Shown: one piece after another, positions 266-62,020 of the stretch
Numbering within the stretch: position 1 is the stretch's first letter
Layout: every line of letters begins with the position of its first letter
NCBI RefSeq assembly: GCF_964340395.1
Contig: NC_135561.1
Span: forward strand, 18,406,240-18,470,239
Length of the DNA: 64,000 nt
DNA from: Glandiceps talaboti
Lineage: Eukaryota > Hemichordata > Enteropneusta > Spengelidae
Direction of reading: 5' to 3'
Notes under the pieces: generated by a model
The model's input: only the letters and a program-made list of their open reading frames with translations
The model's database searches: none
Told to the model about the DNA's origin: nothing
Translations under genes and position numbers: made by a program

Positions 266-377
266 TACTCGGTCACCTTGCTACATCCGGGTATCTGCTA
301 CCATTAGAAATCCTGACAATTTTATGAAGTCCACCAGAAAATTCAACTATTACTTCTATTCTTTATTTCGATAAGAC

Positions 378-564
378 GGTGGACCGTTCCCGGAGGTACT
401 GCAATACCAGGTCGATCCGTGGCCAGGACGGAGCAAGCTCCTATTCCATAGCCCGATTGCAAAAATCAGTTTAATATCGAGCTGCTCGATGAGCAGCGTA
501 TCAGATATTAAGCTGATAAGAACAGATACTACACATGATCTTAGCCAAAAGGCCGAGAAGCGAT
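378..564 (-). ncRNA. U2: U2 snRNA copy, minus strand, lacking its upstream promoter
   Basis: Full-length 187-nt U2: it starts ATCGCTTCTCGGCC, carries the branch-site-pairing block GTGTAGTATCTG and the Sm site GATTTTTG, and ends GGAACGGTCCACC. Only a few bases of normal 5' flank (CGTT) remain before the sequence switches at about 570 to the opposite-facing spacer. The PSE and octamer found upstream of the other copies are therefore absent. The RNA sequence itself looks intact, but transcription is doubtful. Confidence 0.9.
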
Positions 565-754
565 AACGAAAACAAAAATAAACAATAATTACACTTCTAT
601 TTCTCTTTCAAATGTCACGTTATCCTCCATTTTGGACATCACAATACAACTTAAAACAGGTACACAAATATACTGATCAACTTTCATAAAATTGTCAGGA
701 TTTCTAATGGTAGCAGATGCCCGGGTGTAGCAAGGTGTCAATCTGACCAAGTAC

Positions 755-1065
755 ATTTGCATATCACTATGTAGTCTTTCTTCCAAATAATACCATGGTT
801 ACTGGTCATCCAGAAGTGGCCAACAGTACCTAGTTGTTATTTTGACTGGATTTTGTTTCCTGCTTTTTACATACTTAAACATTGAGATATATATAATACT
901 AAAGTCATGTACATTTTCTGAGAATAATGCAGATCATTTCCCATGAAGATATTTAATTAAACTTTGGTAAGAAAGATCGAGAATTTACCTTTCCCTTGCC
1001 TTACCTGAAACCGTACTAGGTCTTTTAACCCGCACATAGGCCACCCCAGAGTACCTTTCACCGTT
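755..1065 (+). promoter_or_regulatory. U2 promoter (octamer DSE and PSE-like block), unit 1
   Basis: ATTTGCAT, the octamer bound by Oct-1 in vertebrate snRNA enhancers, lies at 755-762. TTACCTGAAACCGTACTAGG at 1001-1020 (about -65 to -46) resembles the vertebrate PSE start TCACCNTNA. Both recur in each unit at fixed distance. Confidence 0.65.
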
Positions 1066-1252
1066 ATCGCTTCTCGGCCTTTTGGCTAAGATCATGTGTA
1101 GTATCTGTTCTTATCAGCTTAATATCTGATACGCTGCTCATCGAGCAGCTCGATATTAAACTGATTTTTGCAATCGGGCTATGGAATAGGAGCTTGCTCC
1201 GTCCTGGCCACGGATCGACCTGGTATTGCAGTACCTCCGGGAACGGTCCACC
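1066..1252 (+). ncRNA. U2: U2 snRNA gene, unit 1
   Basis: U2 snRNA pairs with the intron branch site in the spliceosome. The 187-nt copy has the invariant 5' region (ATCGCTTCTCGGCC), GTAGTATCTGTTC, stem IIb GCTGCTC-ATC-GAGCAGC, Sm site GATTTTTG and the 3' stem block GGAATAGGAGCTTGCTCC. A likely 3' box (GTCTTATCGAAATAAAGAAT) follows at 1253. The promoter is intact, so it is probably expressed. Confidence 0.96.
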
Positions 1253-1799
1253 GTCTTATCGAAATAAAGAATATAAGTAATAGTTGAATTTTCTGGTGGA
1301 CTTCACATTGTTCTTACAAATCGTTTTGGACGTTAATATTGTTCTGTCGCTTTGAAATGTACGTTTGACCTAAAAAAAAGCACTGTCAATTTATTGACGG
1401 TTGTACTTTCACGGTTTCTAGATCATTCAGCGGAGACTTTCTCACATGCTCCCTAGATTTACATGAGCCGGGCAGCTTATTCGAAGGGGATCCTGACGGT
1501 TATGTTTCTCCCAAATCATTGCAAAAAGTTGGATTGGGACTCGTCAATGTTATCCAAAAGTCTAATGCACTTTTTGCCAATTATACTTTAAAGACAATCT
1601 ATGACAGACATGTTTCGAACAAATCGCTTGTTTATGAATCAAAGGAAGAAGACGAGAACTTATGTATGAATGTGATGACTGACTATCGTTTCAAACCACT
1701 AGGTGGTACCGGTATCCTCAGGCCGGGAATGTTCTCTCCACAGACTGTGTTTACAATAACGCATATGATAAATCCATAATATACAAAAATAAACAATAA

Positions 1800-1997
1800 T
1801 TACACTTCTATTTCTTTTTCAAATGTCACGTTATCCTCCATTTTGGACATCACAATACAACTTAAAACAGGTACAAAAATATACTGATCAACTTTCATAA
1901 AATTGTCAGGATTTCTAATGGTAGCAGATGCCCGGGTGTAGCAAGGTGTCAATCTGACCAAGTACATTTGCATATCACTATGTAGTCTTTCTTCCAA
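1800..1997 (-). other. 65-codon spacer open frame, recurring in U2 units
   Basis: A 65-codon frame recurs at 589-786, 1800-1997, 4218-4415, 6637-6834 and, inverted, at 11,542-11,739 and within 12,762-12,983. It contains the octamer on its other strand. It opens with TTG, not ATG, in the left units. In the units at about 3,010 and 5,430 one base of a T run is lost and the frame breaks. No family recognised; most likely non-coding spacer that overlaps the snRNA enhancer. Confidence 0.3.
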
Positions 1998-2276
1998 ATA
2001 ATACCATGGTTACTGGTCATCCAGAAGTGGCCAACAGTACCTAGTTGTTATTTTGACTGGATTTTGTTTCCTGCTTTTTACATACTTAAACATTGAGATA
2101 TATATAATACTAAAGTCATGTACATTTTCTGAGAATAATGCAGATCATTTCCCATGAAGATATTTAATTAAACTTTGGTAAGAAAGATCGAGAATTTACC
2201 TTTCCCTTGCCTTACCTGAAACCGTACTAGGTCTTTTAACCCGCACATAGGCCACCCCTGAGTACCTTTCAACGTT
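1966..2276 (+). promoter_or_regulatory. U2 promoter, unit 2
   Basis: Octamer ATTTGCAT at 1966-1973, 304 nt before the U2 start; PSE-like TTACCTGAAACC block at about -65. Confidence 0.65.
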
Positions 2277-2463
2277 ATCGCTTCTCGGCCTTTTGGCTAA
2301 GATCATGTGTAGTATCTGTTCTTATCAGCTTAATATCTGATACGCTGCTCATCGAGCAGCTCGATATTAAACTGATTTTTGCAATCGGGCTATGGAATAG
2401 GAGCTTGCTCCGTCCTGGCCACGGATCGACCTGGTATTGCAGTACCTCCGGGAACGGTCCACC
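2277..2463 (+). ncRNA. U2: U2 snRNA gene, unit 2
   Basis: 187 nt, apparently identical to unit 1 through the branch-recognition region, stem IIb, Sm site and 3' stems. Upstream elements and the 3' box are intact. Confidence 0.96.
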
Positions 2464-3175
2464 GTCTTATCGAAATAAAGAATAGAAGTAATAGTTGAAT
2501 TTTCTGGTGGACTTCACATTGTTCTTACAAATCGTTTTGGACGTTAATATTGTTCTGTCGCTTTGAAATGTACGTTTGACCTAAAAAAAAGCACTGTCAA
2601 TTTATTGACGGTTGTACTTTCACGGTTTCTAGATCGTTCAGCGGAGACTTTCTCACATGCTCTCTAGATTTACATGAGCCGGGCAGCTTATTCGAAGGGG
2701 ATCCTGATGGTTATGTTTCTACCAAATCATTGCAAAAAGTTGGATTGGGACTCGTCAATGTTATCCAAAAGTCAAATGCACTTTTTGCCAGTTATACTTT
2801 AAAGACAATCTATGACAGACATGTTTCGAACAAATCGCTTGTTTATGAATCAAAGGAAGAAGACGAGAACTTATGTATGAATGTGATGACTGACTATCGT
2901 TTCAAACCACTAGGTGGTACCGGTATCCTCAGGCCGGGAATGTTCTCTCGACAGACTGTGTTTACAATAACGCATATGAGAAATCCATAATATACAAAAA
3001 TAAACAATAATTACACTTCTATTTCTTTTCAAATGTCACGTTATCCTCCATTTTGGACTTCACAATACAACTTACAACAGGTACACAAATATACTGACCA
3101 ACTTTCATAAAATTGTCAGGATTTCTAATGGTAGCAGATGCCCGGGTTTAGCAAGGTGTCAATCTGATCAAGTAT

Positions 3176-3486
3176 ATTTGCATATCACTATGTAGTCTTT
3201 CTTCCAAACAATACCATGGTTACTGGTCATCCAGAAGTGGCCAACAGTACCGAGGCGTTATTTTGACTGGATTTTGTTTCCTGCTTTTTACATACTTAAA
3301 CATTGGGATATATATAATACTAAAGTCATGTACATTTTCTGAGAATAATGCAGATCATTTCCCATGAAGATATTTAATTAAACTTTGGTAAGAAACATCG
3401 AGAATTTACCTTTCCCTTGCCTTACCTGAAACCGTAGTAGGTTTTTTAACACGCACATAGGCCACCCCAGAGTACCTTTCACCGTT
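3176..3486 (+). promoter_or_regulatory. U2 promoter, unit 3
   Basis: Octamer at 3176-3183, again 304 nt from the U2 start. The PSE-like block has one change (CCGTAGTAGG for CCGTACTAGG). Confidence 0.6.
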
Positions 3487-3670
3487 ATCGCTTCTCGGCC
3501 TTTTGGCTAAGATCATGTGTAGTATCTGTTCTTATCAGCTTAATATCTGATACCCTGCTCATGCAGCTCGATATTAAACTGATTTTTGCAATCGGGATAT
3601 GGAATAGGAGCTTGCTCCGTCCTGGCCACGGATCGACCTGGTATTGCAGTACCTCCGGGAACGGTCCACC
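3487..3670 (+). ncRNA. U2: U2 snRNA variant, unit 3 (damaged stem IIb)
   Basis: 184 nt. Compared with the other units it lost three bases and gained a substitution in stem-loop IIb (CCTGCTCATGCAGCTCG), leaving about 4 bp instead of 7. It also has ATCGGGATATGG for ATCGGGCTATGG just after the Sm site. The branch-pairing region is unchanged. It may be a variant or a decaying copy. Confidence 0.9.
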
Positions 3671-4383
3671 GTCTTATCGAAATAAAGAATAGAAGTAATA
3701 GTTGAATTTTCTGGTGGACTTCACATTGTTCTTACAAATCATTTTGGTCGTTAATATTGTTCTGTCGCTTTGAAATGTACGTTTGACATAAAAAAAAGCA
3801 CTGTCAATTTATTGACGGTTGTACTTTCACGGTTTCTAGATCATTCAGCGGAGACTTTCTCACATGCTCCCTAGATTTACATGAGCCGGGCAGCTTATTC
3901 GAAGGGGATCCTGACGGTTATGTTTCTCCCAAATCATTGCAAAAAGTTGGATTGGGACTCGTCAATGTTATCCAAAAGTCAAATGCACTTTTTGCCAGTT
4001 ATACTTTAAAGACAATCTATGACAGACATGTTTCGAACAAATCACTTGTTTATGAATCAAAGGAAGAAGACGAGAACTTATGTATGAATGTGATGACTGA
4101 CTATCGTTTCAAACCACTAGGTGGTACCGGTATCCTCAGGCCGGGAATGTTCTCTCCACAGACTGTGTTTACAATAACGCATATGAGAAATCCATAATAT
4201 ACAAAAATAAACAATAATTACACTTCTATTTCTTTTTCAAATGTCACGTTATCCTCCATTTTGGACTTCACAATACAACTTAAAACAGGTACACAAATAT
4301 ACTGATCAACTTTCATAAAATTGTCAGGATTTCTAATGGTAGCAGATGCCCGGTTGTAGCAAGGTGTCAATCTGATCAAGTAC

Positions 4384-4694
4384 ATTTGCATATCACTATG
4401 TAGTCTTTCTTCCAAACAATCCCATGGTCACTGGTCATCCAGAAGTGGCCAACAGTACCTCGGCGTTATTTTGACTGGATTTTGTTTCCTGCATTTTACA
4501 TACTTAAACATTGAGATATATATAATACTAAAGTCATGTACATTTTCTGAGAATAATGCAGATCATTTCCCATGAAGATATTTAATTAAACTTTGCCAAG
4601 AAAGATCGAGAATTTACCTTTCCCTTGCCTTACCTGAAACCGTACTAGGTCTTTTAACCCGCACATAGGCCACCCCTGAGTACCTTTCAACGTT
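4384..4694 (+). promoter_or_regulatory. U2 promoter, unit 4
   Basis: Octamer at 4384-4391, 304 nt upstream of U2; PSE-like TTACCTGAAACCGTACTAGG retained. Confidence 0.65.
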
Positions 4695-4881
4695 ATCGCT
4701 TCTCGGCCTTTTGGCTAAGATCATGTGTAGTATCTGTTCTTATCAGCTTAATATCTGATACGCTGCTCATCGAGCAGCTCGATATTAAACTGATTTTTGC
4801 AATCGGGCTATGGAATAGGAGCTTGCTCCGTCCTGGCCACGGATCGACCTGGTATTGCAGTACCTCCGGGAACGGTCCACC
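4695..4881 (+). ncRNA. U2: U2 snRNA gene, unit 4
   Basis: 187-nt copy matching units 1 and 2, with full stem IIb, Sm site and 3' stems and an intact promoter. Confidence 0.96.
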
Positions 4882-5593
4882 GTCTTATCGAAATAAAGAA
4901 TAGAAGTAATAGTTGAATTTTCTGGTGGACTTCACATTGTTCTTACAAATCGTTTTGGACGTTAATATTGTTCTGTCGCTTTGAAATGTACGTTTGAACT
5001 AAAATAACAGTCAATTTGTTGACGGTTGGTTGTACTTTCACGGTTTCTAGATCATTCAGCGGAGACTTTCTCACATGCTCCCTAGATTTACATGAGCCGG
5101 GCAGCTTATTCGAAGGGGATCCTGACGGTTATGTTTCTCCCAAATCATTGCAAAAAGTTGGATTGGGACTCGTCAATGTTATCCAAAAGTCTAATGCACT
5201 TTTTGCCAATTATACTTTAAAGACAATCTATGACAGACATGTTTCGAACAAATCGCTTGTTTATGAATCAAAGGAAGAAGAGGAGAACTTATGTATGAAT
5301 GTGATGACTGACTATCGTTTCAAACCACTAGTTGGTACCGGTATCCTCAGGCCGGGACTGTTCTCTCCAAAGACTGTGTTTACAATAACGCATATGAGAA
5401 ATCCATAATATACAAAAATAAACAATAATTACACTTCTATTTCTTTTCAAATGTCACGTTATCCTCCATTTTGGACATCACAATACAACTTAAAACAGGT
5501 ACACAAATATACTGATCAACTTTCATAAAATTGTTAGGATTTCTAATGGTAGCAGATGCCCGGGTTTAGCAAGGTGTCAATCTGATCAAGTAT

Positions 5594-5904
5594 ATTTGCA
5601 TATCACTATGTAGTCTTTCTTCCAAACAATACCATGGTTACTGGTCATCCAGAAGTGGCCAACAGTACCTAGGCGTTATTTTGACTGGATTTTGTTTCCT
5701 GCTTTTTACATACTTAAACATTGGGATATATATAATACTAAAGTCATGTACATTTTCTGAGAATAATGCAGATCATTTCCCATGAAGATATTTAATTAAA
5801 CTTTGGTAAGAAACATCGAGAATTTACCTTTCCCTTGCCTTACCTGAAACCGTACTAGGTCTTTTAACCCGCACATAGGCCACCCCAGAGTACCTTTTAC
5901 CGTT
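5594..5904 (+). promoter_or_regulatory. U2 promoter, unit 5
   Basis: Octamer at 5594-5601, 304 nt upstream of U2; PSE-like block intact. Confidence 0.65.
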
Positions 5905-6091
5905 ATCGCTTCTCGGCCTTTTGGCTAAGATCATGTGTAGTATCTGTTCTTATCAGCTTAATATCTGATACCCTGCTCATCGAGCAGCTCGATATTAAAC
6001 TGATTTTTGCAATCGGGCTATGGAATAGGAGCTTGCTCCGTCCTGGCCACGGATCGACCTGGTATTGCAGTACCTCCGGGAACGGTCCACC
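5905..6091 (+). ncRNA. U2: U2 snRNA gene, unit 5
   Basis: 187 nt. One G-to-C change opens the outermost base pair of stem IIb (GATACCCTGCTC). The 3' box region reads GTCTTATCGTAATAAAG, one base different from the others. Otherwise intact. Confidence 0.94.
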
Positions 6092-6190
6092 GTCTTATCG
6101 TAATAAAGAATAGAAGTAATAGTTGAATTTTCTGGTGGACTTCACATTGTTCTTACAAATCATTTTGGACGTTAATATTGTTCTGTCGCT

Positions 6191-6616
6191 TTGAAATGTA
6201 CGTTTGAACTAAAAAAAAAGCACTGTCAATTTATTGACGGTTGTACTTTCACGGTTTCTAGATCATTCAGCGGAGACTTTCTCACATGCTCCCTAGATTT
6301 ACATGAGCCGGGCAGCTTATTCGAAGGGGATCCTGACGGTTATGTTTCTCCCAAATCATTGCAAAAAGTTGGATTGGGACTCGTCAATGTTGTCCAAAAG
6401 TCAAATGCACTTTTTGCCAATTATACTTTAAAGACAATCTATGACAGACATGTTTCGAACAAATCGCTTGTTTATGAATCAAAGCAAGAAGACAAGAACT
6501 TATGTATGAATGTGATGACTGACTATCGTTTCAAACCACTACTTGGAATGGGGATCCTCAGGGGACTGTTCTCTCCACAGACTGTGTTTACAATAACGCA
6601 CATGAGAAATCCATAA
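6191..6616 (+). other. Spacer open frame downstream of U2 (up to 141 codons), recurring
   Basis: An open frame recurs in each left-arm unit, ending at 1779, 2990, 4197, 5408 and 6616. It ends with an ITHMRNP-like tail, a stop and, within about 12 nt, AATAAA. The longest copy opens at TTG, and none has a convincing in-frame ATG near the front. The start region differs by frameshifts in an A run. Between units most substitutions change the amino acid, which argues against purifying selection. No family recognised. It could be a captured, decayed 3' exon with its poly(A) signal. Confidence 0.3.
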
Positions 6617-6802
6617 TATAGAAAAATAAACAATAATTACACTTCTATTTCTTTTTCAAATGTCACGTTATCCTCCATTTTGGACTTCACAATACAACTT
6701 AAAACAGGTACACAAATATACTGATCAACTTTCATAAAATTGTCAGGATTTCTAATGGTAGCAGATGCCCGGATGTAGCAAGGTGTCAATCTGACCAAGT
6801 AC

Positions 6803-7104
6803 ATTTGCATATCACTATGCAGTCTTTCTTCCAAACAATACCATGGTTACTGGTCACCGAGAATATTACCTGAGCGTTATTTTGACTGGACTTTGTTTTC
6901 TGCATTTTACATACTTAAACATTGAGATACACATAATACTAAAGTCATTTACATTTTTGGAGAAAATGCAGATCATTTCCCATGCAGATATTTGATTATA
7001 CTTTGCTAAGAAAAGTCGAGAATTTACCTTTCTCTTGCCTTACCTGAAACCGTACTAGGTCTTTTAATCCGCACATAGGCCACCCCAGAGTACCTTTCAT
7101 TGTT
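6803..7104 (+). promoter_or_regulatory. U2 promoter in front of a truncated copy
   Basis: Octamer at 6803-6810 (295 nt from U2, not 304) and a PSE-like TTACCTGAAACCGTACTAGG, leading into a U2 gene that stops after 50 nt. This unit is more diverged than the others. Confidence 0.5.
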
Positions 7105-7154
7105 ATCGCTTCTCGGCCTCTTGGCTAAGATCATGTGTAGTATCTGTTCTTATC
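7105..7154 (+). pseudogene. Truncated U2 snRNA, first ~50 nt
   Basis: Begins ATCGCTTCTCGGCC, has C for T in GGCCTCTTGGC, and runs to TCTGTTCTTATC, where it joins the LINE. It lacks stems II-IV and the Sm site, so it cannot form a U2 snRNP. Confidence 0.93.
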
Positions 7155-7390
7155 TAGTCCCCAACCGCCTTTATTTTTTGGCAGGTTGATAATGTTACGT
7201 GCTACAGCCTCCCTTTTCCCTGTCTAGAAAAAGGAAAACATTCCAGAAATAAGTCGTTGCAAAATAGTTGGAGGGCACGTAAAAAGGGTGGCAACACAGT
7301 ACAAGAGCAGGAGGGCTAAGGAATTTAAAGCAGTCGTTTTGCCCGTGAGGGTAAGATGCCTCGATTTCCAGGAGTTAAGTGTTTTCCGTA
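7155..7390 (-). pseudogene. LINE ORF2 thumb region of reverse transcriptase, broken
   Basis: The minus strand encodes LNSWKSRHLTLTGKTTALNS, the W-K-x-R-x-L-T-x-x-G-K motif of L1/Tx1 RTs after the palm. A single TAG follows FSFF where family members have Trp, then the frame continues to NLPKNKGGWGL and stops at the U2 junction. The sequence that should lie between this and the upstream RT portion, including the YxDD active site, is missing. Confidence 0.8.
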
Positions 7391-7519: not shown

Positions 7520-8440
7520 CTACCAAAAGTCCTTTGCTTTTGTCTTTATTAGGGGAGAGCTAGTGATATTGTTATAGAGAGTTTGTACATAGTGGATAAA
7601 GGGGGAGCCGAAGTTCATTTTATGCAATACTTTAACAAGGAAGGCCCATTCAACGCGATCAAAGGCTTTCTGCTGGTCCAGGGAGATAATAGCGCAGGGT
7701 GACTTGCGTTCATTTGCAAAGTAAACCGTATCTCTGAGGATTTGGATGTTTTCATGTATCGATCTCCCTGGGATGCCACAGGTTTGAAAGGGAGAAAGAA
7801 GAGAGGTGAGAACTGGTTTTAAACGATTACAAAGAGATTTGGAAATTAACTTATAATCAGTGTTGAGAAGAGAGATAGGTCGCTTATTTTTTGGGTTCAT
7901 GTGTGCATTTTCATTACCTGGGAGAGATGTGTCTACCTGTTTATTGGGGAGGGTGATGACGCTCCTCCGCTGAGAAGTTGATAGTTCCCCTCGTTCAAGC
8001 ACTTCATTCAGAACGTTTGTAATGGCATCGCCGATGAAGTGCCAACACGATAGATAAAATTCGTTCTCCCCCCGGTGTTTTGTAGTTTTGTAGTTTTCCA
8101 TTTGTGTAAGTGAGTTGAATAATTCTGTTTTAGTTAGGGGGCCCTCTAAACTCTGTTTTTGTTCAGGTTTGAGAACGGAAGTGATTTTAGAAAGGAAAAA
8201 TTCTTGCTGGTTTTTGTCCAGGTCGGGTTCAGAAGTAAAGAGTGTTTTGTAAAAGTTAGTGAGTGTATTTGAAATTTCTTTTTGAGTTGGATGAGTTTTA
8301 CCTTGACCATCCTGAATGGCTGTGATGATCTTTTTCCTACCGCGATTGTGCTCGCGACTGAAAAAATACCGGGTACATCTTTCAGAAAGGTCAAGTCTGT
8401 GGACGCGCACGCGAATCATGGTGCCTTGCTGCCTTTTCAT
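7520..8440 (-). pseudogene. LINE ORF2 reverse transcriptase N-terminal part
   Basis: A 306-codon open frame with RT blocks: NKRPISLLNTDYKLISKSLC (RT1/2-like), QTCGIPGRSIHENIQILRD, then SLDQQKAFDRVEWAFLVKVL carrying the catalytic Asp and the AFDRV motif typical of L1/Tx1. The frame ends after SSPLIKTKAKDFW, just before the expected G-x-RQG-x-PLSP block. The rest of the palm is deleted. The protein cannot be active as it stands. Confidence 0.88.
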
Positions 8441-8681
8441 GTTTAAAGAGTTAATTTCCTCTTTTAATAGATGGTATTTGCCTAATGTTTACTTCGTTCT
8501 ATCACATTCGTTCAACTTGATGGTATATTTTGTGAGGTCGTTTTGGAGGGATTGGAGACGAGTTTTGTGTTGTTTTGTTTTTTCATTTGCACATTGTTTT
8601 AACACAGACTTAAAACGGCCCTTAACCATCCCACCAATCGGATAGGTTCTGTAAACCTGGTTTAAGTGTTTGCCAGTTTTT

Positions 8682-11573: not shown

Positions 11574-12319
11574 GTACTTGGTCAGATTGACACCTTGCTA
11601 CATCCGGGCATCTGCTACCATTAGAACTCCTGACAATTTTATGGAAGTTGATAAGTATATTTGTGTACCTGTTTTAAGTTGTATTGTGAAGTCCAAAATG
11701 GAGGAAAACGTGATATTTGAAAAAGAAATAGAAGTGTAATTATTGTTTATTTTTGTATATTGTGGATTTCTCATGTGCGTTATTGCGTGGGTTATACTTC
11801 CATGTGGGTTATACTTCCATGGTTATTGTAAACACAGTCTGTGGAGAGAACAGTCCCGGCCTGAGGATACCTGTATCAACTAGTGGTCTGAAACGATAGT
11901 CAGTCATCACATTCATACATAAGTTCTCGTCTTCCTCATTTGATTCATAAACAAGTGATTTGTTCGAAACATGTCTGTCATAGATTGTCTTTAAAGTATA
12001 ACTGGCAAAAGTGCATTAGACTTTTGGATAACATTGACGAGTCCCAATCCAACTTTTTGCAATGATTTGGGAGAAACATAACCGTCAGGATCCCTTTCGA
12101 ATAAGCTGCCCGGCTCATGTAAATCTAGGGAGCATGTGAGAAAGTCTCCGCTGAATGATCTAGAAACCGTGAAAGTACAACCGTCAACAAATTGACTGTT
12201 ATTTTAGTTCAAACGTACATTTCAAAGCGACAGAACAATATTAACGTTGAAAATGATTTGTAAGAACAATGTCCACCACAAAATTCAACTATTACTTCTA
12301 TTCTTTATTTCGATAAGAC

Positions 12320-12506
12320 GGTGGACCGTTCCTGGAGGTACTGCAATACCAGGTCGATCCGTGGCCAGGACGGAGCAAGCTCCTATTCCATAGCCCGATT
12401 CCAAAAATCAGTTTAATATCGAGCTGCTCGATGAGCAGCGTATCAGATATTAAGCTGATAAGAACAGATACTACACATGATCTTAGCCAAAAGGCCGAGA
12501 AGCGAT
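12320..12506 (-). ncRNA. U2: U2 snRNA gene, right arm
   Basis: 187-nt full-length U2 on the minus strand. It differs from the left-arm copies at CTCCAGGAACGG and GATTTTTGGAATC, and at both places it matches the vertebrate U2 consensus better. PSE and octamer are intact, so it may be expressed. Confidence 0.95.
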
Positions 12507-16563: not shown

Positions 16564-44362
<27,799 letters not shown>

Positions 44363-52810: not shown

Positions 52811-52939
52811 ATGGCCGGGCTGGAGTTGTTGTATGCTAGCATTTCCAACCAAATTTCTTCTAGCAACGATGCTGTTGTTTGTTATTTACACTGGTGTATG
52901 ATAAATAACGGGTTTAAATGCATCGGTTGTGGGGAGGAG
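52811..52939 (+). CDS. PSMF1: PSMF1 exon 1
   Basis: ATG in context AACATGG. Ends GGGGAGGAG|GTATGA, phase 0. MAGLELLYASISNQISSSND, AVVCYLHWCMINNGFKCIGC. Confidence 0.95.
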
Positions 52940-55311
52940 GTATGAAAATGTGATTATCATTTTTTCGCACGTGGCATTAACGATAAGTTTGTTTACATTC
53001 TACTTCCGGGTTGTTGATGTCTGCAAATAATTTATGCACTGTCATGTTTGCAATACTTTTGACATCCTGTACTTCGTTCATATTTCATAAGAGCAGTCTA
53101 CCGTGAGATTTCAGATAATTGGAATCAGAATGGAGTTTTGAAATAGTTTTCATTGAAGATACTCATCATGTGTCTGATACATGATGTTGCTCATGAACTA
53201 GAATATGCATGTCTGTGAAATATAAAAACATGGGATAATGATAAATAATTGAATATGTATATATATAGACAATACCGTGAGTACGCAGTTCAGAAGATAG
53301 GATGTGGCAGCTATGTACTTTATAGGCATCCACTTTAGATTCACAGTTGTTAAGTGAGGGATAAGTAATTGATACCTTTGAACCTGCTAAAATATACATA
53401 CATATATTATATATACAAGCCTTGGTGGAGGGTCTATAATACAAGCAAGGGAAATGCATCATTTTTTAAAGTATAACACGGGTTAGAATTGCATGAGTAT
53501 AATATGGCTGTTAGCTAGACGCAAGGCCAGCTTGCATGGCGTGTGGTGGGTCTGTGATTCTGACTGTTGTCACTCGATGAGAGTGCAATGTACACCACAG
53601 CCATACAAGCTAGAAGCTAACCATGCAGATACATTTTGTACATGTAGTTACATAGATGTACATGTAGCCTGTTTACATCACAATGCAATGTATGTGTTTT
53701 TTGCTTTGCTGTTTCACAAACCACTTGTATTGCTAACCACAGCAAACTATTGATAATCATATGCTCAAACTAATTAGTTTGAGAAAAGCACACTCAAACT
53801 GATTGGTCGCAATGGGGAGTGATAACATATGTCGGCCTAATTGAATATATGCAAATGAAGTCAATATGTAAATGTGCCCTCATTGAGATGAGCACAGGAG
53901 TGACATCCACAAACAGGCATGCTGAAAACTTTTTTTGGGGGTGTGGCTAAATTAATTATTTTGCCTTTAAATACTAGCATTACAAGCAGTTTGTGATACA
54001 GCAAAGCTAAATACACAGATCATGATGGTAATGTAAACAGGCTGTTCATAGACTGGCAGGTATACATGATGTATATTTTGCAAAACATGCATCTCTACAC
54101 ATACATGTCATGCACACATAATGTATTCATCATTGTTCATTCATATAACATTTGATCAATCAAATTATCACACATTTATTAATTCTTCAATTGTTTGATT
54201 ACAACTAATGAATCATGTGTGTGTGTGTGTGTGTGTGTGTTTGTATGTAATGTATAGTATGTATGTATGTATGTATGTATGTATGTATGACTAAAATCCC
54301 ACGCAATCTGTCATTCATTTCTTTCACCCTTTAGATAAGTTTTTGCTTTGTATGGAGACATAGATGCTGCAGAAAGATCTCTCTCTCTGCGACATCTATG
54401 ATTGAGACAGTTATTTCACCTTGCTATGAAGCCAAATGACAAGAAGTGTTTTATTTCACATCTATAGATTCCTGACAATAAGAATTGTTTTATTTCGCTA
54501 TAGATTGCTGACAATAAGAACTGTTTTATTTCGCTATAAATTCCTGACAATAAGAAGTGTTTTATTTCACATCTATAGATTCCTGACAATCTTGATGGAT
54601 TAAAGAAGAGTGAATTGTTACCACCAGGCTGGAATTCATCTCAGGACTGTTATACATTAAAGTACCAACCCAATGACAGTGATGAACTACATCTATTGAA
54701 AGCTATACCTATAGACAATACATTATTAGTACATGTCATGGTGAGTGTAATAGTGATTTTACTAATGTTTGATAACCTCTCTCTTACCAATCATTTATTT
54801 AGATTTAGTCGATTTAGATGTACTCTTTAAATCATTTTAAATCATTATAACGTTGCCTTTTTTTTTTTTACAGCCATACTTGTAATTGCAGTAGCTTTTG
54901 ATTTATTTCAAATGTGAAGCACCTATGAGCACTGTCGTGGATATATGGCACTATATAAATGTTTATTATTTATTATTATTATTAACCTAGGTAACAGAAA
55001 AGGGGGATCAGGTAAAATTGCATATAGTTTATTTATACATATTGTACATTAACTTTGTTGGGAATCCCTGGGGAAGTGATTTGGGAACTTTGATAGATTT
55101 TACCTTCATAATTAATACAAAAGTAATGAAACAACTGTATAAATGTAGGTTTCTAGTTCTAAAAGATATGAGGGAAGTCTAGGTTAATGTACTATAGTCT
55201 GTCTGTATTCAATCATTTTGATTGGGAATTATTATAGCAGATTTTACCTTCTTTGTCTCAATTTACAAAATTAAATTCTATGACAGGTAGACAGGTAGCG
55301 CCCCCCCCCCC

Positions 55312-55345
<34 letters not shown>

Positions 55346-58300
55346 CATATTTTTTGTTGATCCTGGCTTGTGCATGATATAATGACTGATAATGGTTTGA
55401 TCATGTCCTACTTTAATAATAATCTGTATTCGTCCAAATAAATTCAGAAATTTGGTTTACGGTTGGTATAGTATTGAAACTAAGCTCACACAATTCTGTT
55501 TTATTACTGTTCCTTCACAGAGATTAAAAGATGAAAAAGTATGTAATCTGACAGTTGAAGTAGAAAGATACACAGACTCACAACATCTTCACAATTTTAA
55601 CAGGTAAGGATGACATTGCCTAGAATTATGCATTGATGTAATAAGTAGTCATTTATTAAGTTACACTAGCTGGAACTGAATCCAACAACCAGGTAAATGT
55701 TTACATTGTCCTGGTAATGTGTCAATTGGGTAAATAACCCATTCATTAGTTCTGGAATTAGCTGTACACAAAGATTAATACTTGAACTCTGATAAGACAG
55801 TGGCATTGATAGGAAATAGGAAAAAACTGTAGCGGAAACAAGTTATGATGGCAATATTTAAAATTTTATTTGAAATATCGACAAAAATAAGATAATGATA
55901 TTAGAAATCCAGTAAATCATGAAAAAAATTATGTACATTGTATTCCTTCTGGACCCTGTGATCAATCAATGCTGTTGCAATATCAACATGATGTTGTTGC
56001 TATATCAACGCAGTGTTGCTGCTATATCAACCTGATGTTTTTGCTATATCAATCAATGTTCTTGCTGTATCAACCTGATGTTGTTGCTATATCAATCCAA
56101 TGTTTTAGCTATATCCAACCAGTGCTGTTCCTGTATTGATCAACATAGTGGTGTTGCTATGTCAACACAATCTGTACAAATCCATGCATAGTCATTTGTA
56201 ATGTGTATTGTATGCGATTTCTTTATAGATCATACAAAAACTTACAAGAACTTCAAGATCAATTCAAGACTGAGATTGTCAATGAACTCCACAAAGATGA
56301 AGCTAAGAAACCGAAAGAGAAATACACATCATCATTGCGAGATGATAGGTTGCCTAGCAGCAGTAGAGAGGATAGAAGACCTGATCACAGCGACCCCCTT
56401 AGAGTGGGACCCCCAAGGAGGCCGTATGCTGAAAGACAACCAGAATGGTAAGCTGTAGATCACAGTTTTTATAATTTAAATCTGAAAGGTGACATGTAGA
56501 CTTGAGTCAATGAGTGATAGATATTCTGTTCTGTGTTACCATGACATTATTCATGACTCCTGAGTACATATTCCTTTCACTGCAAAACATCTCTCATGAA
56601 TATCCATTGTGCAAACATAAATATATTATTTCTACTGACTCCCATCATGCAATACTCCACAGCAAAGATACCCTATAAAGGCACAAGATCGACTTAATGT
56701 TTCTCTGAAATCACAAGTAATTGTAAGTGATGTAAAATAATGACATGACTCTCCGGAACTCACAGTGTATGAAAATGTCTTTATTTCCAGGAGTGGTGTT
56801 TCCATTAAAAATTTGGTGAGATAAATGGTTCTCTGGTTTTAGAAAAAGTTGGTCCAGAACAAAATAATAAATCTGTTTGATTCTTATGGCTCCTCTAATA
56901 GTAATAAGATAATATTAATGGAATCATGTGACTTTATCTTAAAATGATATTTTTTTAAATGAAAAAAATAAAAGTAAAGTAAAGTAAAGATCACTGATGA
57001 ATTAATTTAAATTGACTACCCATATAATTCCTAAGTCAATGTCTGTATACATTTTTTAAAAGTCAAATCAATTTTCCCACATTACTAAGGTAGAATGCAC
57101 CTTGAGATGAATTTCACTTCGAATAAAAGTTCTTCATACCTCTTTGCGCCTCTATCTGACAGAAATTAGTTTCAATAGTACTTTTAGTCACATGACATTG
57201 TCTGATCCAATTAAAATTGTGAAATTCTACAGATAGTGAAGTCCATGACACAGACTAACACTTTCTCCTGTTATGTTGCCAGGGGTGAACCAAGTAATCC
57301 ATATGACACAGACTAATATTTTCTCTCGTCATGTTGCCAGGGGTGAACCAAGTAATCCATACATGACACAGACTAATATTTTCTCCTGTTTTGTTGCCAG
57401 GGGTGAACCAAGTAATCCGTATGACACAGACTAACACTTTCTCCTGTTATGTTGCCAGGGGTGAACCAAGTAATCCATACATGACACAGACTAATACTTT
57501 CTCCTGTTATGTTGCCAGGGGTGAACCAAGTAATCCATATGACACAGACTAATATTTTCTCCTGTCATGTTGCCAGGGGTGAACCAAGTAATCCATACAT
57601 GACACAGACTAATATTTTCTCCTGTCATGTTGCCAGGGGTGAACCAAGTAATCCATATGACACAGACTAATACTTTCTCCTGTCATGTTGCCAGGGGTGA
57701 ACCAAGTAATCCATACATGACACAGACTAACACTTTCTCCTGTTATGTTGCCAGGGGTGAACCAAGTAATCCATACATGACACAGACTAATACTTTCTCC
57801 TGTTATGTTGCCAGGGGTGAACCAAGTAATCCATATGACACAGACTAATATTTTCTCCCGTCATGTTGCCAGGGGTGAACCAAGTAATCCATACATGACA
57901 CAGACTAATATTTTCTCCCGTCATGTTGCCAGGGGTGAACCAAGTAATCCATATGACACAGACTAATACTTTCTCCTGTCATGTTGCCAGGGGTGAACCA
58001 AGTAATCCATACATGACACAGACTAATATTTTCTCCCGTCATGTTGCCAGGGGTGAACCAAGTAATCCATATGACACAGACTAATATTTTCTCCCGTCAT
58101 GTTGCCAGGGGTGAACCAAGTAATCCATACATGACACAGACTAATATTTTCTCCCGTCATGTTGCCAGGGGTGAACCAAGTAATCCATATGACACAGACT
58201 AACACTTTCTCCTGTTATGTTGCCAGGGGTGAACCAAGTAATCCATACATGACACAGACTAACACTTTCTCCTGTTATGTTGCCAGGGGTGAACCAAGTA

Positions 58301-58674
58301 ATCCATACATGACACAGACTAACACTTTCTCCTGTTATGTTGCCAGGGGTGAACCAAGTAATCCATACATGACACAGACTAACACTTTCTCCTGTCATGT
58401 TGCCAGGGGTGAACCAAGTAATCCATACATGACACAGACTAATACTTTCTCCTGTCATGTTGCCAGGGGTGAACCAAGTAATCCGTATGACACAGACTAA
58501 TACTTTCTCCTGTTATGTTGCCAGGGGTGAACCAAGTAATCCATATGACATCGGAAGAGGAGATCTTGATCCTTTCCATGCTGGAGGTGGAATGTTGATG
58601 GATCCATCAAGGGGTGGATTTCCAAGGGGAGGGATTCCTGATCCAAGTGCTGGCCTACCTGGAAGATTACCAAG
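52811..58674 (+). CDS. PSMF1: Proteasome inhibitor PI31 (PSMF1), spliced, 3' end outside window
   Basis: Five exons (129, 162, 83, 219 and 150 nt) join in phase to 247 complete codons plus two bases. PI31 regulates the 20S/26S proteasome and binds the F-box protein FBXO7 through its N-terminal FP domain (exons 1-4 here). Start MAGLELLYASISNQISSSND closely matches the human protein (MAGLEVLF...); CYLHW, SELLPPGWNSSQD, YKNLQEL and the Pro/Gly-rich GDLDPFHAGGGM, SGFP-like and DPSAGLPGRLP blocks also agree. The final exon with the C-terminal proteasome-binding tail (HbYX-like) is not seen up to 64,000. Confidence 0.94.
54218..54290. repeat. (GT)n followed by (ATGT)n microsatellite
   Basis: Simple repeats in PSMF1 intron 1. 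Confidence 0.95.
54441..54578 (+). repeat. Tandem copies of the PSMF1 exon 2 acceptor
   Basis: Three copies of AAGAAGTGTTTTATTTC..CTATAGATTCCTGACAAT precede the real acceptor. AG ends fall at 54,467 and 54,503; the third is mutated (TATAAAT); the true one is at 54,578. Spacing 36-39 bp. Confidence 0.88.
54579..54740 (+). CDS. PSMF1: PSMF1 exon 2
   Basis: Acceptor CATCTATAG, donor GTCATG|GTGAGT; 54 codons, phase 0 both sides. IPDNLDGLKKSELLPPGWNS, LKYQPNDSDELHLLKAIPID. The LLPPGWN motif is diagnostic of the PI31 FP domain. Confidence 0.95.
54880..54985 (+). mobile_element. 3' tail of a non-LTR retroelement
   Basis: GAGCACTGTCGTGGATATAT, GGCACTATATAAATGTTTAT, then (TTA)n: a typical CR1/L2/SINE-type 3' end. 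The 5' extent is uncertain. Confidence 0.5.
55301..55342. repeat. C run followed by A run
   Basis: About 10 C then about 30 A in PSMF1 intron 2. Confidence 0.95.
55521..55603 (+). CDS. PSMF1: PSMF1 exon 3
   Basis: Acceptor TCCTTCACAG, donor AACAG|GTAAGG. RLKDEKVCNLTVEVERYTDS, QHLHNFN, split Arg codon. It aligns with the VADLTLNLDDYI-type segment of the FP domain. Confidence 0.93.
56229..56447 (+). CDS. PSMF1: PSMF1 exon 4
   Basis: Acceptor TTCTTTATAG, donor GAATG|GTAAGC. SYKNLQELQDQFKTEIVNEL closes the FP domain; then a Lys/Arg/Asp/Ser/Pro-rich linker ending RRPYAERQPEW. The Trp codon is split with exon 5. Confidence 0.94.
57246..58524 (+). repeat. 58/60-bp minisatellite made of PSMF1 exon 5 splice-acceptor copies
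   Basis: Counting GTTGCCAGGGG, there are 21 repeats followed by the real acceptor. Each unit holds branch-like GACTAA(C/T), a T/C-rich tract CACTTTCTCCTGTTATG, TTGCCAG and the first ~20 nt of exon 5 (GGGTGAACCAAGTAATCCAT). Two unit lengths (ATATGACAC, 58 bp; ATACATGACAC, 60 bp) often alternate. Confidence 0.97.
58525..58674 (+). CDS. PSMF1: PSMF1 exon 5
   Basis: The last minisatellite unit provides the acceptor TTGCCAG; the donor is CCAAG|GTATGT. GEPSNPYDIGRGDLDPFHAG, GGMLMDPSRGGFPRGGIPDP, SAGLPGRLPR: the PI31 C-terminal Pro/Gly-rich region (human GGEDLDPF, DPSSGLPNRLP). Phase 2 exit, so at least one more exon is needed. Confidence 0.95.
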
Positions 58675-61117: not shown

Positions 61118-61637
61118 TAATCTTCTAATTCACTATTGTATAGTTTTAACAGTCTTAACAGTTTTACTCTTGTCTTATGAATGTCACCAGTTTTGGTGTT
61201 GTCTTGTATGGATTGTAGATTGTTTGAATGTTCTGAGCGACATCGCAACATTTTCCTAGTGTATTTTTTAAATAATGCATAAAGGCAATTATGATTATAA
61301 TATCAATAATATCAATATATGTAATGTTGACATTTCCAGACTATTATATTATTTAAAACGTACATATCTTATTTTGCCTCTCTTTGCCTTAATACATTTT
61401 GAAACTGTATACTCATTTTTTCAAAGTACAGGAATAGATGTAGATTGAATAGATTGAAATGTTAATAAACTCATACAACCTCCGTCATCTTTTATCGTTG
61501 CAACACATTTTAGCCTAAGGGGTAGACAAGAATGACATAAATGATATATTAAAAACATTGCATGAAGATAGGTTTCAATTCTATTTTATATAGAATAATG
61601 ATAAATGAATCAGAGCTAGAATTTGGCAAGAATTTAG

Positions 61638-62020
61638 GACAAATAGACTACTAAACATTGTATCTAGACTACCAAATTAGCAGTAGTCCAGGGTTAGACT
61701 ACTAAACATTGTATCTAGACTACCAAATTAGCAGTAGTCCACGGCACATAGACTACTAAACATTGTATCTAGACTACCAAATTAGCAGTAGTCCAGGACA
61801 CATTAGATTATTAAACATTGTATCTATACTACCAAATTAGCAGTAGTCCAGGATACATAGACTACTAAACATTGTATCTAGACTACCAAATTAGCAGTAG
61901 TCCAGGATACATAGACTACTAAACATTGTATCTAGACTACCAAATTAGCAGTAGTCCAGGACACATAGATTATTAAACTTTATTTCTAAACTACCAAATT
62001 AGCAGTAGTCCAGGATACAG
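61638..62020. repeat. ~52-bp minisatellite, about 7 copies
   Basis: TAGACTACTAAACATTGTAT, CTAGACTACCAAATTAGCAG, TAGTCCAGGACACA. The last copies are more diverged. Confidence 0.93.

Follow-up and report, generated by a model that had tools for sequence, protein, structure and literature searches.

A 22-copy tandem repeat of a 3′ splice site spans the intron 4/exon 5 boundary of PSMF1 in the hemichordate Glandiceps talaboti

RESULTS

PSMF1 and neighbouring elements

The window, i.e. the whole stretch of 64 000 nt of Glandiceps talaboti DNA that was analyzed, carries exons 1–5 of PSMF1 on its forward strand. Exon 1 (52811..52939, from the ATG) and exon 2 (54579..54740) were placed by matches of their open frames to the Pfam domain PF11566, by reading frames and by alignment to PI31; frames and the PI31 alignment define exon 3 (55521..55603), exon 4 (56229..56447, donor ATG|GTAAGC) and exon 5 (58525..58674, 150 nt, donor AAG|GTATGT), whose open frames gave no Pfam match when taken singly. 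Intron 4 (56448..58524) measures 2,077 nt and carries at its 3′ end the array described below. The 248-aa model of exons 1–5 matches, over query residues 1–247, the PI31 of PDB 8fz6, which we take to be the human protein, with E = 8.4e-55. When exon 4 is joined to exon 5 through the last unit of the array, RQPEW|GEPSNPYDIGRGDLDP stands opposite RQPPWCDPLGPFVVGGEDLDP of PI31 without insertion. The gene, its exon 5 and the exon 4 donor at 56447, which an earlier note had named from the letters of the DNA, are borne out by the PI31 match and the frames. Outside the window, ~23 kb 3′ of exon 5, we found a frame with GAVPPGARFDPFGPPGTG...PDPDHLPPPGYDDMFG*, which is presumably the last exon, judged by its motifs.

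Several other elements lie in the window. Eight matches to U2 snRNA were observed at 374-7243 and 12316-12506, seven of them at 167-191 bits and one (7105-7243) at 56 bits; six copies are located on the + strand at intervals of ~1.2 kb and two on the - strand. With the U2 unit a frame of 136-146 aa recurs (1369-1779, 2580-2990, 3787-4197, 4998-5408 and 6176-6616), for which no Pfam match was found in the one copy tested. A reverse transcriptase frame on the minus strand (7520-8488; RVT_1, E = 2.1e-19) marks a retrotransposon remnant. Matches to PHD, BRK and TFIIS_M in separate minus-strand frames (16564-31355) suggest one gene adjoining PSMF1, presumably DIDO/PHF3-like.

A tandem array across the intron 4/exon 5 boundary

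The end of PSMF1 intron 4 and the start of exon 5 are repeated 22 times head to tail in units of 58 or 60 bp (57247-58546). TRF reports the array at 57244-58545 with a period of 60, 22.0 copies and 94% matches, and a second time with a period of 118 and 11.0 copies; the 118-bp dimer is called because spacings of 58 bp (9/21) and 60 bp (12/21) alternate over most of the array. Each unit consists of GACACAGACTAA(C/T), a pyrimidine tract, TTGCCAG and then GGGTGAACCAAGTAATCC(A/G)TA, and ends with either T, giving 58 bp, or CAT, giving 60 bp. TTGCCAG|GGGTGAACC is present in 22/22 units, CAG and CTAAY likewise (CTAAC in 7/22, CTAAT in 15/22), and the AG is intact in all of them. This is the anatomy that the earlier note had described, namely 22 tandem 58/60-bp units with CTAAY, a pyrimidine tract, CAG and the exon start, and it holds in every unit. 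The array extends in tandem copies across an intron/exon boundary, and its units contain splice signals. From repeat finding, alignment and frames, units 1–21 (57247..58488, forward strand) represent putative decoy 3′ splice sites, with the first exon-like base at 57283 in unit 1 and at 58467 in unit 21. Unit 22 (58489..58546, forward strand) is the exon-proximal copy, with exon 5 starting at 58525, and colinearity with PI31 through this unit supports it as the probable working acceptor, as had been proposed.

Among the 22 units we observed 12 distinct sequences with a mean pairwise identity of 96%. Seven of 57 aligned columns are variable, 6/36 in the intronic and 1/21 in the exonic part, and over these 57 columns an extra constraint on the exonic part was not apparent (Fisher p = 0.24). 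Units 5 and 10 are identical to unit 22 over the 57 columns, and units 17, 18 and 19 have another core in common. A genome-wide DNA search (covering 590,416,875 bases in 47 contigs), which skips very common words, found the array at one place only.

All of the 21 upstream acceptors lead to GEPSNPYDTD*, either directly or after at least one 20-codon unit; as the last two units are spaced by 58 bp, no decoy stays in frame. The frames agree with the earlier reading that a 58-bp unit gives GEPSNPYDTD and a stop, that 60-bp units keep a 20-codon frame open and that unit 21 ends it. Paired with the real donor, the decoys would give exons of 208-1392 nt (>500 nt in 16/21), compared to 150 nt for unit 22.

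Acceptor strength and choice of the exon-proximal copy

Acceptors and donors were scored with generic matrices. With the acceptor matrix 21/22 copies score 7.7-7.8, the exception being unit 3, a decoy, with 9.7, and unit 22 ranks 14th of 22. The median array copy outscores the best 5′-side AG at 36/40 kinase exons, where the yardstick is the best-scoring AG in the frame extension (n = 40), i.e. a candidate and not a confirmed acceptor. AGs as strong as the array copies occur 29 times in 360,000 nt (the 18 sampled stretches described below, both strands), about 1 per 12 kb. Every unit also contains the donor-like GTAATC and GTGAAC, located 2 and 11 nt into the exon-like part and matching 5-6/9 positions; the best donor match in the array reaches 6/9 positions and the real exon 5 donor 8/9. 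Directly 3′ of the repeated part, exon 5 contains the purine-rich CATCGGAAGAGGAGATC. Between +25 and +74 we counted five GAA/GAG after unit 22 and one after each decoy examined (units 1, 5, 10, 20 and 21).

Local signals cannot decide which site is used, because unit 22 has two exact counterparts over the 57 columns, units 5 and 10. Unit 22 is not the top-scoring copy either and upstream there is only more array, so selection must rest on downstream sequence. According to PMC9225289, long flanking introns favour, among near-equal sites, the one nearest across the exon, and short introns the one nearest across the intron; that text cites Reed and Maniatis as observing the nearest-across-intron choice, and over all its data, before strength is equalized, the downstream donor is still commoner. 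By this rule unit 22 is predicted, because both introns flanking exon 5 are long (2,077 nt and ~23 kb). Against exon definition, the classical nearest-across-intron result in the same text would favour unit 1; the more frequent downstream donor in its unequalized data and the higher score of unit 3 also count against it, as does the strong downstream donor copy of L029 described below. We consider exon definition the likeliest mechanism of choice: exon 5 would be recognized as a unit and the shortest exon would win, as decoys without a good donor of their own would have to pair with the real donor over much longer distances. The purine-rich stretch that follows unit 22 only may help, the decoys preceding the pyrimidine tract of the next unit. 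RNA spliced to a decoy would carry an early stop and would presumably be cleared by nonsense-mediated decay.

Origin and growth of the array

The left flank GTCCATGACACAGAC and ATCCATATGACATCGG of exon 5 have ATGACA in common, which sits just left of unit 1 in intron 4 and again in exon 5 and is a plausible seam of the founding duplication. The minisatellite may have started by tandem duplication across the intron/exon boundary, probably between such short matches, and would then have been amplified and homogenized by unequal exchange, partly as 118-bp dimers; judged from its units, the array looks young and shaped by unequal exchange. All units except the exon-proximal one would fall into intron 4. 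As these units are intronic, growth of the array leaves the protein unchanged while the exon-proximal acceptor is used.

Similar arrays elsewhere in the genome

In the available text of PMC3087553 and PMC3902484, amphioxus minisatellites across intron/exon boundaries are called 'mirages' and leave regular splicing undisturbed. Besides the exon 5 array, other arrays of the present genome share this build, on both sides of exons. A second mirage in PSMF1 itself, identified by TRF and sequence reading, consists of four units of 36 or 39 bp that straddle the border of intron 1 and exon 2 (54441..54590, forward strand): the acceptors at 54468 and 54504 are intact and each lead to a stop, the one at 54540 lacks the AG, and 54579 is the start of exon 2. 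On the minus strand a 43-bp array of 4.6 copies with CTAACTTACTGTTATTTATACACAG-like units (31297-31489) runs up to the acceptor of a PHD-finger exon and takes in the end of the intron, but not clearly the exon. The window arrays at 21301-21594, 24611-24751, 43025-44000 and 61636-62019 and smaller ones are not tied to an exon edge.

For a first estimate of frequency we used 15 stretches of 10 kb elsewhere and 3 adjoining the window, which contain 17 arrays. Two of the 17, chosen for splice-like motifs, were read. Both look like donor mirages, found in 2/15 sampled 10-kb places, their exons being judged by open frame and splice sites: L003 (7620-8010) has 39-bp units with 10 donor copies, nine of them with GTAAG, and L007 (7794-8033) has 104-bp units with donors GTAAGT and GTAAGA, next to an exon that we presume to be of STK40. 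We also selected 40 kinase exons with short open frames from 132 places. TRF flags arrays at 6/40. Two of these are clearly mirages of the donor: L029 has two copies of a 60-bp unit, and L064 has 78-bp units with five GTAAGTTC sites, the exon's own included, and one GTGAATTC. The array at L036 is ambiguous, and those at L058, L062 and L063 were rejected as intronic only. Mirages thus occur at 2 (or 3) of ~80 kinase-exon edges.

Non-simple arrays with a period of at least 20 make up 2.9% of the sequence in the 18 stretches and 4.8% of that in the kinase flanks. In this small sample (18 stretches, 40 kinase exons) there was no sign of arrays seeking or avoiding exon edges, and for this reason a near-neutral birth is favoured. 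Not every mirage is guarded by stops, since in L029 and L003 the second copy continues the reading frame and meets none. In L029 (811-925) the intronic downstream donor copy GTAAGT is closer to the consensus than the exon-proximal GTAGGT; splicing at the intronic copy would extend the open frame by 20 codons. Taken together, these arrays suggest that mirages are common in at least one deuterostome genome besides amphioxus.

The mitochondrial contig

Contig C40 (51,222 bases) contains COX1 three times, 15,435 bases apart, and these tandem mitochondrial units are probably the assembly form of a circle. By eye, cob is flanked by atp6 and cox3, the minus strand has a nad6-like frame, and the tRNA-Lys has the anticodon CTT. 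The codon AAA is absent from 8/10 mitochondrial genes counted, the cob span being out of frame and set aside; nad5 has two, near the end of the span taken. In a comparison by eye, mammalian Ile corresponds to ATA at several positions, including cox1 codons 252 and 311 and nad5 codons 166, 275, 311, 330 and 439; at cox1 72 the counterpart of ATA is Met, at cox1 317 it is Val, and at other places it is Val, Leu or another residue. As given in the available text of PMC2697986 and PMC3121625, ATA is Ile in echinoderms and hemichordates; AAA is missing in Balanoglossus, Lys in Saccoglossus and Asn in echinoderms; Balanoglossus has a tRNA-Lys CUU, and nad6 is its only minus-strand protein gene. In both hemichordates of PMC2697986 cob adjoins nad5, whereas on the present contig it is not beside nad5. 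Overall the contig fits an enteropneust hemichordate best and speaks against amphioxus, although the position of cob departs from this, as does the genome size (590,416,875 bases compared to 1.16 and 0.93 Gb for the two hemichordates of PMC11175523).

DISCUSSION

We consider it rather probable that the PSMF1 array is a mirage born by boundary duplication, that unit 22 is used via exon definition and that mis-spliced RNA decays. The anatomy of the array, its frames, the near-equal local signals and the colinearity with PI31 are observed, whereas we infer that no other unit is used, that the exon is recognized as a whole, that decay follows mis-splicing and by which route the duplication arose. 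A different role for the same features would be regulatory, in that decoys constantly divert some of the transcripts to destruction and the PI31 level depends on the copy number. The 22 intact and strong AGs would fit such a role, as would the stop behind 21/21 decoys and the 58-bp spacing of the last two units that breaks every decoy's frame. However, recent homogenization (96% identity) explains intact copies without selection, and array coverage (2.9 and 4.8%) is close to the mirage rate at the ~80 kinase edges, as chance would produce, so that we regard regulation by the array as unlikely.

Highly improbable, in our view, is an intron-proximal choice followed by step-wise or nested removal of unit-sized introns that ends at unit 22: every unit does offer the donor-like GTAATC and GTGAAC beside its acceptor, but these match 6 and 5 of 9 positions, and since they are 2 or 11 nt away from the acceptor each step would leave extra bases, mostly frame-breaking. 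That the animal has fewer units and the copy number is an assembly artefact also seems quite improbable. One amphioxus mirage was aberrantly assembled in a draft genome, according to the available text of PMC3087553, but here the contigs are large (C14 = 24.6 Mb), 12 distinct units stand in a partly ordered 58/60 pattern, and the array of 1.3 kb is within the span of one long read.

With the reading of a boundary duplication resolved by exon definition, the PSMF1 array takes mirages beyond amphioxus and provides a natural test of how splice sites are chosen, in which the same 57-nt core recurs and the difference lies only downstream. It indicates that repeats can expand at the edges of exons with apparently little cost, and such repeats are a proposed route to new introns. 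A wider picture, which we put forward tentatively and hold to be rather doubtful as a whole, is that hemichordate mirages sit at a few percent of exon edges (thousands), at donors and acceptors alike, and are near-neutral since splicing keeps to the sites nearest across the exon; PSMF1 would be an extreme natural experiment with 22 near-equal acceptors and one winner, and some arrays, heritable and variable in length, might tune the amount of unproductive splicing.

Three known systems can be compared with the array. Recursive splice sites provide several acceptors inside one intron, as does PSMF1 intron 4. However, in PSMF1 no acceptor is joined directly to a donor and re-splicing would leave bases behind: instead of AG|GT, the units have CAG|GGGTGAAC in 22/22 cases. 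New introns arising by tandem duplication are described in PMC4974935 (potato RdRp) and PMC2891723 (Drosophila); these duplications share with PSMF1 tandem copies with splice signals inside genes, whereas here the copies lie in an existing intron and no new intron arises.

The closest likeness is to the amphioxus mirages, whose units measure, in the available descriptions, 10-72 bp in Adh3 (the Adh cases being cited through PMC3087553) and 60 and 108 bp in PGBD5. Both they and the PSMF1 array consist of tandem boundary-spanning units that hold the splice signal. In the amphioxus cases the outermost unit forms the real exon edge, and colinearity with PI31 suggests the same for PSMF1. Like the arrays of the present genome, the amphioxus mirages affect 3′ and 5′ edges, and the unit lengths overlap. 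In contrast, the host here is a hemichordate, and PSMF1 has 22 copies compared to 3 and 6 in the two haplotypes of BflGb6 in the available text; splicing and instability were seen by experiment in amphioxus, whereas the PSMF1 array is known from the sequence of one assembly. In our searches of the open-licence literature we recognized no boundary-spanning minisatellites outside amphioxus and none for hemichordates. The earlier note mentioned neither that mirages had already been described nor that PSMF1 exon 5 is not unique in carrying one. The PSMF1 array belongs to the known kind of mirage; its host and the frequency of such arrays are new.
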